DNA from: Nitrosospira multiformis
GTDB taxonomy: Bacteria > Pseudomonadota > Gammaproteobacteria > Burkholderiales > Nitrosomonadaceae
Assembly (NCBI RefSeq): GCF_900111585.1
Contig: NZ_FOHI01000001.1
Location: 124,001 to 188,000 of the forward strand
Length of the DNA: 64,000 nt
Reading direction: 5' to 3'
Shown: positions 1 to 3,198 of the stretch, one piece after another
Layout: every line of letters begins with the position of its first letter
How positions within the stretch are numbered: the stretch's first letter is position 1
Notes under the pieces: generated by a model
Told to the model about the DNA's origin: nothing
What the model saw: the letters and a program-made list of their open reading frames with translations, nothing else
The model's database searches: none
Translations under genes and position numbers: made by a program

Positions 1-206
1 CCACGGTCAACTTCCAAATTGTGTCCGCTCTCTGGATTATCAAAGTTGGTCATCTATTCGACGGTGTGATTAAGCCGGCGGTGTCATACGGGAATAGGCT
101 TCGTCGCTCTTACAACGAGTTCGGCGATCCGAGAGTGGATGGACCGGCGATAAATTTGACGACAACAGGTCTCTTCGCTCCCTATTTCTCTGCCTACCGT
201 ACGTAG
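1..206 (+). pseudogene. N-terminal part of the DRT1/UG1 reverse transcriptase, ends at an in-frame amber
   Basis: The frame starting at base 3 is open from the window edge to TAG at 204-206 and is the same frame as the large ORF that follows. It reads ...KPAVSYGNRLRR... and ...GLFAPYFSAYRT, which looks like the fingers region before the catalytic palm of a reverse transcriptase. After the TAG the frame continues REKGLSAMERS without another stop. The simplest reading is one gene whose start is upstream of the window, with a sense codon (TGG to TAG would be one change) turned into a stop. A separate short protein is unlikely. Confidence 0.7.
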
Positions 207-218
207 CGTGAAAAGGGA

Positions 219-2663
219 TTGTCAGCGATGGAAAGGTCGCTGCAAGAAGGGAAAAGTATCTTGGCGATCACAATGGATATAGAACAATTTTACCATCGTG
301 TATCGCCCAAGTTTTTACTAAGGAAGACATTTCTAGACTCAATAAAGCTGTCTCTTTATCGGCAAGAATCCATATTTACGAGAGCACTGTTAGCTGCAAT
401 CGACGTCTGGTACAAATCGACACCCGATTACGTTGATCGTCCAGAGGGAGGAATACCTGTTGGTCTTTCGGCCTCAAAGATCATCGCGAATGTATTGCTT
501 TCAAACTTCGACAATGAGCTTGTTGATCGGTTAAAACCGATATATTACGGCCGTTACGTCGACGATATTTTTCTTGTCTTCGAAAATCTAGAGGGACTTA
601 CGACTGCAAGGCAGGTAACGAAGCGAATAGCTGATGTTTTGGCACCTGAATTAGTTCTTGAAAGCAATGATACGGAAGCACCGTCTCTGAAACTTCGTCT
701 CCCCTATGCAAAAGATTCGGAATTGCTTTTCGTCGGGAAGAAACAAAAGATATTCGCGTTGTCGTCATCGCATGGCCTCGATCTGATACAGCATATTCGA
801 GAGCAGATTCGCATTCAGTCCAGTGAATATCGTCTGCTCCCCGCTGTTCCGACAACCGGTGTCAGAAGGGCGTCCAAGGCATTGCTGGCGACTCCTAATG
901 CAACTCTACAAGTAGACGCGCTTCGGAAAGCGGATGTGGTGTCCGTGAAACGCCTAGGAGTATCTCTCTTACTTAGGGATTTGGAAGCTTATTCGGCTGA
1001 CTTACATCCTGAATCATGGAGTGAAATACGTAAAGAGTTTTACGGACTAGCGAAGCGCCACATCTTAACGCCAATAGGTTTTTTTGAATTTTTCGGCTAT
1101 CTGCCTCGGATTTTTGGTTTGATGCTCACGAGCCGAGATGTGCGCGAGGCTAGTCAACTCATTGAAGACTTGATCGCGGTCGCAAATCTTGTCAAGAGAA
1201 CGACCACAGTTGGCGAGGCTGCTCAGTTGCCGAAATTTAGGCTGTGCTTAGTGCAATATGCACAAGCTTTTCTCCAGGCTGGCTTACAGGCTGCGACTGA
1301 ACGTACCCTAAAGTTGGATCGTCAGTATCTTAAAGTGTTGCACGCGCTGTTAGGGTTGGATAAAGACATCAAAATTCCCACTTCACTGCGCTGCCTAAAG
1401 ACGCGTGCCCATCAAATTCTATTGGCTGATTGGGGAAGACGCCCCTATAAGGACTATTGGTATCTGAGCCAAGAGAACGATGAGAAAGGACCACCCATAC
1501 CTCGCCAGCTGGAAATTCAACGAAAGATTAGATTGGGTGGCATTCGGCGTTTCAGTACACAATCGACCAATCTCAAAATTCCGCATTGGCCAGCCCTTGC
1601 ATTTCCGACAAGGCCCTTACGAATCGACGAAATAGCCTTGGTTGCACCGAATGTTCTTTCGGATCCTGTGCAGTTTAAGCATGCCATTCTGGTTTTACGT
1701 GGAGCGAAGGTGTCAGCAAGGTCGCACCTAGGGTTTGTACTGGGAAGTGAGGCGGGTAACGAGGAACCAGCCATATTTATTGTTCCTGGGCACAGCAAAA
1801 AGTTGATAGGGGTGGCGATCACTAGTCTTGAAACGACTGAAGTACAATGGGCTAAGGCGGCAAAAGGAAAACAAGATCGATCAATAGAGCGATATAGAAA
1901 TCTAAACGGACTGGTAAACCAGATTCTTCGGGAGACTAAGACCCCTGACTATATTGTTTTTCCCGAACTTAGTATTCCCCTTCGATGGGGTTTGAGGATT
2001 GCGAGGAAATTGGCGGCAAATGGTGTTTCACTGCTTGCAGGAGTTGAATATCACAGAGATCGAACTACAGGGCGATTGCGTAATGATAGTTTGATTTCCC
2101 TGGTTACAGATTGGCCAGGCTACGCAAGTCATGTCGCGAGACTTCAGCCAAAATTTTTCCCTGCTCATGGCGAAAAAGTAAACTTAGCTAATTTAAGACT
2201 AGGAAAGCGAGGACACTTTTTCAAACCATCCGGACTCTATGTAAAACCTACGCTTTATGTACATAGAGGGTTTTGCTTTTCTATTCTCATATGTAGCGAC
2301 TTAACCAATATAGCGCACAGGCATCAACTTCGTGGCAAGGTAGATGCTCTGTTTGCCTTGGAGTGGAATCCTGACATTAAGACATTTGCACCGCTGATTG
2401 AGGCGACAGCCAATGATTTGCACGCTTACGTTGCTCAAGTAAACAATCGAACTTACGGGGATAGTCGTCTTCGGGTGCCTGCGGTGGAAGACTATTTGAG
2501 GGACGTGGTACAGGTTAAGGGAGGTATCAGTGACTATTATGTTCTAGGCGAAATCGATTACCTAGCGTTGCGTAAGGAGCAATGCCGCCCTCCGAGGAAA
2601 CGTAAATTCAAGCCAGTACCGATCGGGTACAAATTCTCGCCTCTTAGAAAGAAAGCAAAGTAG
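219..2663 (+). CDS. Reverse transcriptase-nitrilase fusion, UG1/DRT1 defence family (5' part separated by amber)
   Basis: This ORF encodes 814 residues from a weak TTG and is the downstream part of the gene entering from base 1. The RT palm is seen as motif A (AITMDIEQFYHRV, Asp about 20), motif B (GGIPVGLSASKIIANVL) and the catalytic YVDD box at residues 113-116. A long middle region follows without a domain I can name. The C-terminal third is a carbon-nitrogen hydrolase (nitrilase) fold with the expected triad: Glu583 in VFPELS, Lys645 in LQPKFFP and Cys692 in LICSDL. RT plus C-terminal nitrilase is the architecture of the UG1 class, known as anti-phage system DRT type 1. Both active sites look intact, so the only visible lesion is the amber at 204-206. 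The TTG start is probably artificial, because the upstream in-frame sequence belongs to the same protein. Confidence 0.88.
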   Translation: MSAMERSLQEGKSILAITMDIEQFYHRVSPKFLLRKTFLDSIKLSLYRQESIFTRALLAAIDVWYKSTPDYVDRPEGGIPVGLSASKIIANVLLSNFDNELVDRLKPIYYGRYVDDIFLVFENLEGLTTARQVTKRIADVLAPELVLESNDTEAPSLKLRLPYAKDSELLFVGKKQKIFALSSSHGLDLIQHIREQIRIQSSEYRLLPAVPTTGVRRASKALLATPNATLQVDALRKADVVSVKRLGVSLLLRDLEAYSADLHPESWSEIRKEFYGLAKRHILTPIGFFEFFGYLPRIFGLMLTSRDVREASQLIEDLIAVANLVKRTTTVGEAAQLPKFRLCLVQYAQAFLQAGLQAATERTLKLDRQYLKVLHALLGLDKDIKIPTSLRCLKTRAHQILLADWGRRPYKDYWYLSQENDEKGPPIPRQLEIQRKIRLGGIRRFSTQSTNLKIPHWPALAFPTRPLRIDEIALVAPNVLSDPVQFKHAILVLRGAKVSARSHLGFVLGSEAGNEEPAIFIVPGHSKKLIGVAITSLETTEVQWAKAAKGKQDRSIERYRNLNGLVNQILRETKTPDYIVFPELSIPLRWGLRIARKLAANGVSLLAGVEYHRDRTTGRLRNDSLISLVTDWPGYASHVARLQPKFFPAHGEKVNLANLRLGKRGHFFKPSGLYVKPTLYVHRGFCFSILICSDLTNIAHRHQLRGKVDALFALEWNPDIKTFAPLIEATANDLHAYVAQVNNRTYGDSRLRVPAVEDYLRDVVQVKGGISDYYVLGEIDYLALRKEQCRPPRKRKFKPVPIGYKFSPLRKKAK

Positions 2664-2682
2664 AAAGGAAAGCTTTCCTTTC
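2663..2682. repeat. Perfect 20-bp palindrome at the end of the DRT1 gene
   Basis: GAAAGGAAAGCTTTCCTTTC is perfectly self-complementary and begins on the last base of the stop codon. In RNA it could fold into an 8-bp hairpin with a 4-nt loop. The bases after it (GTTACCTT) are not a proper U tract, so it is a weak terminator candidate or a protein-binding palindrome. The 219 bases from here to the next gene hold nothing else recognisable. Confidence 0.5.
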
Positions 2683-2901
2683 GTTACCTTGGGTCGGCAT
2701 GTAAAATGGTAACAACTCTTCTATCTTCTAGGAACTCCAGGGCTGTTTACATTTTCCGCTTGTTTTTTGGAGTCGACCGTTAGTTTAGGCAGCATCGGTT
2801 TGTATTTTCCAGGTTATTAACATCATTAGGTATACACAACCGTTCTGATGCGACTTTCCGACATGACTGCAAGATGCTGCATGACCGAATCTGCTAGAAA
2901 T

Positions 2902-3198
2902 ATGACCAAACTGTTTCTTCTCCTTATTACGCTGTTTGTATTTAGCGGAGCGGTATTCGCGGCTGTCAATATCAATACCGCTAGCCAGGCCGAACTGGAA
3001 AGTCTTCAGGGAATCGGCCCGGCCAAAGCCAAGGCGATCATCGACTATCGCAAGAAGAAGGGGTCTTTCAAATCCGTGGATGATTTGCAGAACGTAAGCG
3101 GCATTGGTCCCGCCACGGTTCAGAAACTGCGCAAGGATATCACTGTCGGTGGCGGCGCGGCAGCCAGGAAGGAGCACAAGCCTGCTGCCAGGGAATAA
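2902..3198 (+). CDS. ComEA-family helix-hairpin-helix DNA-binding protein
   Basis: The 98-residue product starts with a signal peptide (MTKLFLLLITLFVFSGAVFA) and then carries the short ComEA domain: VNINTASQAELESLQGIGPAKAKAIIDYR followed by a second hairpin, VSGIGPATVQKL. The two GIGPA turns are the helix-hairpin-helix DNA-backbone contacts. In naturally competent bacteria periplasmic ComEA binds incoming DNA; stand-alone copies like this are common in betaproteobacteria. The start at 2902 is chosen because it places the hydrophobic segment at the N-terminus; the longer ORF from 2848 would put 18 polar residues before it. It is monocistronic, with cysM following after 160 bases. The tail is basic (KEHKPAARE). 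Confidence 0.88.
   Translation: MTKLFLLLITLFVFSGAVFAAVNINTASQAELESLQGIGPAKAKAIIDYRKKKGSFKSVDDLQNVSGIGPATVQKLRKDITVGGGAAARKEHKPAARE

Follow-up and report, generated by a model that had tools for sequence, protein, structure and literature searches.

The window analysed here is a stretch of 64,000 nucleotides (G000:C14:124001–188000) from a 3.2-Mb draft genome of Nitrosospira multiformis in 21 contigs (completeness 99.62%, contamination 0.04%). A reverse transcriptase (RT)–nitrilase gene enters it from the left on the forward strand. The start codon, ATG at L003:11619, lies outside the window, 382 bases upstream of window base 1 (i.e. window coordinate -381 when the base preceding the window counts as 0), and the gene runs for 1014 codons to its final stop, ending at window position 2663. 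After 195 codons it is interrupted by an in-frame TAG (codon 196, positions 204-206, + strand); elsewhere frame 3 has no stop between the window edge and the terminal TAG at 2661-2663, as a preliminary description of this DNA had reported and as we found again in the sequence. There is no second stop or indel over the 3 kb of the gene, and comparison with a homologue from Nitrosomonas ureae is gap-free.

Positions 1-206 (+) hold the 3' part of the N-terminal piece (the end of codon 128, codons 129-195 and the TAG), as placed by profile and by the N. ureae alignment; it includes NRLRR, which we take to be RT motif 2. This piece is not a chance ORF, since it is recognised by the UG5 RT-nitrilase model (1.7e-44) and shares 85% identity with the N. 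ureae N-terminus. The C-terminal piece (219-2663, +), delimited as an ORF and by profiles, comprises the RT palm, a helical middle and a nitrilase domain, and ends in TAG. Both active sites are intact in it, in agreement with the preliminary description: YVDD of the RT lies at 555-566, and the nitrilase Glu, Lys and Cys, presumably the catalytic triad (roles assigned from nitrilases in general rather than from UG5 data), lie on the same strand in the motifs FPELS (1959-1973), LQPKF (2142-2156) and LICSD (2286-2300). The numbering Glu583/Lys645/Cys692 given earlier was reproduced by counting from TTG 219. An internal ATG at 228-230 (+), preceded by AAAAGGGA, is a candidate restart site. No RNA family reached its gathering score in L003:11100–15300, which covers the gene and its surroundings, scans for promoters (1 site versus 4.9 expected) and terminators (6 versus 3.9) gave no signal, and a repeat scan of the locus returned nothing striking.

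The preliminary description holds in calling the gene a defence-type RT-nitrilase that has kept its two active sites and carries one amber codon; it does not hold in naming it UG1 (DRT1). Among PADLOC models, RT_UG5-nitrilase (PDLC03780) scores best on each of the two pieces; it matches the N-terminal piece over profile positions 21-167 of 907 (1.7e-44) and the C-terminal piece over positions 175-898 of 907 (1.8e-220). The Drt1a model is not listed for the N-terminal piece and reaches 1.3e-25 on the C-terminal piece, where its best-matching stretch falls within the nitrilase half. UG1/DRT1 membership is thereby ruled out by profile. The sequence match to the solved DRT1 structure 9yfd is likewise confined to the nitrilase part (1.7e-7). 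Because the UG5 model is best for both pieces and DRT1 matches the nitrilase part only, the gene is, by its profile matches, a UG5 RT-nitrilase. The profile is matched along its length and the RT Asp pair and nitrilase Glu, Lys and Cys are present; the single uninterrupted polypeptide of the fusion form is broken by the TAG at codon 196. Among Pfam models (E up to 1) RVT_1 in the C-terminal piece was the sole match. A Foldseek search with the modelled N. ureae protein returned RT matches of a general kind; 9yfd was not among the 50 matches listed, from a library that may lack it.

Excerpts of the literature describe UG5 RTs as fused to or near a nitrilase (PMC8934634), and an RT–nitrilase of this family together with a transmembrane partner as anti-phage in E. 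coli, reminiscent of type I DRT yet in a separate clade (PMC9122126). In the accessible text of the latter, the system is the 'RT-nitrilase + 1TM' of a P4-like satellite; the gene studied here differs by the codon 196 stop, and among the short ORFs of its insert no gene for a small membrane protein was recognised. DRT1, for which the available text reports an RT acting together with a nitrilase as effector in abortive infection (PMC13275509), shares with our gene the architecture of an RT with a C-terminal nitrilase and a matching nitrilase region, and differs by the far weaker Drt1a match and, according to the excerpt of PMC9122126, by its separate clade.

The nearest relative found was that of N. 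ureae Nm13, to which the upstream piece is 85% identical (160/189, no gaps) and the downstream piece 83%, also gap-free. As the preliminary description had proposed, the residue at the TAG position was read from aligned homologues: it is Trp in all 19 aligned relatives, with identity down to about 31% (one of these rows, L129, is just the piece before its own stop). None of the 19 shares the TAG, and a conserved or programmed stop is thus unsupported. It had also been considered that homologues might lack the upstream segment, so that the downstream ORF would be a natural start. This is excluded, as relatives possess the segment apart from L012, which is cut by a contig end, L074, whose stretch is incomplete and whose start is shown by L076, and L017, which carries the segment in another frame. 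AlphaFold2 modelling of the intact N. ureae protein places the stop-column Trp (residue 191) in a predicted helix (184-204) that precedes the strand (209-216) bearing the first Asp we take to be catalytic. Model confidence is 83-85 for residues 191-210 and 54 just before them, and the RT is well modelled from this point onward; with a moderate whole-model mean of 65 and a pTM of 0.48, only the RT part was used.

Relatives were also sought in other settings. None was found in viral contigs and phage records at the limits used. A UG5 RT-nitrilase gene, for which RT_UG5-nitrilase is again the best model, is present at at least 99% identity in 253 of 5426 complete E. coli genomes, and 253 of its 254 places are chromosomal (the plasmid copy is L139). 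The N. ureae copy lies directly behind an HsdR gene, and by our reading of the sequence the two genes ahead of HsdR are presumably HsdM and HsdS.

The gene is the cargo of an insert of ∼3.6 kb (L003:11235-14839, window -765..2839, of which 1-2839 (+) falls inside the window) between ssb and comEA. The insert is absent from the close relatives G003, G008 and G012, where ssb adjoins comEA; the right flank of the insertion site is comEA (2848-3198, +). The order MFS transporter–ssb–comEA–cysM, gene names that we assign from the sequences, is kept in 21/21 relatives examined (a set that excludes G017, for which no comEA match was obtained). The gap separating the ssb match from the comEA match was at least 2 kb in seven of 22 genomes including our own, 746 bases in one and at most 265 in 14. 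The occupied junctions (7 of 22 genomes of the genus; the others are L110, L114, L115, L117, L120 and L126) hold differing inserts of about 2-6 kb, mostly with defence-type genes. In G007, which is among the four closest relatives by comEA, the junction is occupied; its four genes (L110:2601-7941) encode a CARF-model protein, an ORC-CDC6-like ATPase, PRTase-CE and a DNA methyltransferase, and matched no single named system. The other cargoes are a deaminase matching the dCTPase model (G022), SIR2 and pAgo (G015), LmuA/LmuB (G001), a methyltransferase with HEPN and a GmrSD/NsnA-like protein (G006) and an ORC-CDC6-like ATPase (G005), the weakest case. Judged from this gene content, the ssb–comEA junction is a hotspot in the genus, and it offers a defined place for seeking defence genes in ammonia oxidisers. 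The sequence at the right end of our insert (L003:14840-14848) is CCGTTCTGA, the ssb tail of relatives, and a diverged copy of it, CCATTTTGA, stands at the left end (L003:11226-11234), as if the insertion had brought its own ssb end.

Selection on the gene was assessed against N. ureae. Ka/Ks was 0.08 for the whole gene, 0.11 before the stop and 0.07 after it, with Ks high (1.4) and near saturation. Low values in both pieces indicate long purifying selection, so the stop is probably late. Tests for relaxed selection on our copy conflicted, and it is not established. At columns invariant in five outgroups, 12 changes were private to our copy, none to N. ureae and 13 were shared; looser column rules gave 13 to 1, and three-outgroup subsets 14–18 to 1–6. 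At the 109 columns invariant family-wide, our copy differed at 2 and N. ureae at 1, and 18 of 27 polarised nucleotide changes on our branch were G>A or C>T. When private changes were scaled by branch length, our copy (82) fell within the range of the outgroups (34, 57, 58, 69 and 122) and N. ureae (0) was the outlier, so loss of constraint is unproven. This per-branch comparison, together with the count of all amino-acid changes on the two branches (65 to 47, P 0.11), is why the pairwise excess was not used as proof of relaxed selection. Neutral drift, if that were what the excess reflects, should have left several indels at the indel rate assumed; the gene has no frameshift, which counts against inactivation.

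The preliminary description argued that a useless protein would carry more lesions in a gene of this length. The argument is weak: a random substitution in this gene creates a stop in about 4% of cases (3.8–4.6% across the models tried), and other UG5 genes also carry single lesions. A single stop is therefore the normal look of a first lesion, and a lone stop without frameshifts is no argument for read-through. A rough base rate for broken copies was obtained from 26 UG5 RT-nitrilase fusion genes not cut by contig ends: four carry one lesion each and 22 are open, which makes broken copies no rarity. The lesions are the TAG studied here, a TGA in L129 (G223) and frameshifts in L017 (Geotalea toluenoxydans) and L138 (G725), so that the other three differ from the codon 196 TAG in position and kind. 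Left out of the 26 were the contig-end rows (L012, G459), G143, regarded as a duplicate of L011, the two-gene forms (G033, G326), a nitrilase-only match (G170), weak RT-only matches (G043, G024, G006), the plasmid matches H2, H4 and H5, and the E. coli population. In draft genomes such lesions could in turn be errors.

As a control, HsdR genes of the same bacterial family showed an in-frame stop in 4/150 and frames of <850 aa, contig ends included, in 23/150 among the matches listed; this control is crude, with rows counted by eye, stops seen only inside a 674-position match and a limit of 850 aa that we chose ourselves. Among the matches listed, in-frame stops (2/26 in UG5 versus 4/150, P 0.22) and lesions of any kind set against short HsdR frames (4/26 versus 23/150, P 1.0) did not differ significantly, and at these numbers the data do not support lesions being more frequent in UG5 than in HsdR. 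It could be imagined that costly UG5 RT-nitrilase genes repeatedly pass through single reversible lesions (stops or short frameshifts) that silence or dampen them with the remaining frame preserved, giving dormant defence alleles in places such as ssb–comEA, but we regard such a cycle as quite unlikely.

We consider it likely that a UG5-type anti-phage gene was inserted between ssb and comEA, where it is one among several alternative cargoes, and later lost its function to a single nonsense mutation at codon 196, in the Trp column. Translation would end there, and the resulting 195-residue fragment would lack both active sites; the allele would then presumably give no defence. In intact relatives the RT and the nitrilase probably act together in abortive infection, the nitrilase being the effector, by analogy to the separate family DRT1 as described in the available text of PMC13275509. 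The locus would most likely hold, as far as its sequence can tell, a fairly ordinary, recently broken accessory defence gene. In the literature searched on UG5, on Nitrosospira defence or RTs and on stops or pseudogenes in defence, nothing on this particular locus was recognised.

The preliminary description had listed a recent stop, a sequencing error or read-through as explanations. The list is a fair one, and the possible rivals to a recent nonsense mutation rank, in our view, as error, translational restart and read-through. That the TAG is a sequencing or assembly error, with the gene intact in the living strain, is unlikely. The lesion stands alone in 3 kb, the catalytic motifs are intact and the genome is a draft in 21 contigs, all of which favour an error; the high completeness and low contamination speak for a fair assembly, though they are no guarantee of single bases.

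Split expression, with a translational restart at ATG 228 (or TTG 219) followed either by reassembly of the 195-aa and ∼811-aa pieces or by activity of the large piece by itself, appears very unlikely. The ATG lies 21 nt past the stop with AAAAGGGA ahead of it, but this purine run encodes Glu-Lys-Gly, whose Glu and Gly are mostly retained among relatives, and it may thus be there by chance. UG5 does occur naturally as two genes in G033 and G326 (an RT of ∼650 aa and a nitrilase of ∼320 aa, both matching the same UG5 RT-nitrilase model); that split, however, separates the RT from the nitrilase, whereas the gene studied here is interrupted inside the RT, where in the N. ureae model the cut would fall within the predicted helix ahead of the catalytic strand.

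Least probable among these readings is low-level amber read-through by a near-cognate tRNA, or by a suppressor that went unrecognised, acting as a brake on a costly protein. Purifying selection over the whole frame and a second UG5 gene with an in-frame TGA (G223) are compatible with it, but the other UG5 lesions differ in place and kind, and every aligned relative has Trp at this column, a residue that amber read-through would seldom supply. A suppressor tRNA, suggested earlier as a check, was not found: none of the 43 tRNA genes detected with Rfam and ARAGORN (anticodons from ARAGORN) has a CUA anticodon, and RF1 is present, which makes read-through the least supported of the three explanations. 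UAG also looks like an ordinary stop, as 4 of the 28 window ORFs of at least 250 aa, the last piece of the studied gene included, end in TAG. An amber-suppressing or recoded genome is unsupported by the same tRNA and RF1 results, and the suppressor idea is weakened for this genome as far as its sequence allows, though an atypical tRNA could have escaped both Rfam and ARAGORN. In-frame stops in bacterial genes under selection have been reported, with lowered expression proposed, in the accessible part of PMC7918605.

A second defence-type RT is encoded in the genome at G000:C15:30218-30823 (L066:3014-4573), where 520 codons are open and the best model is Drt8 (2.5e-136).
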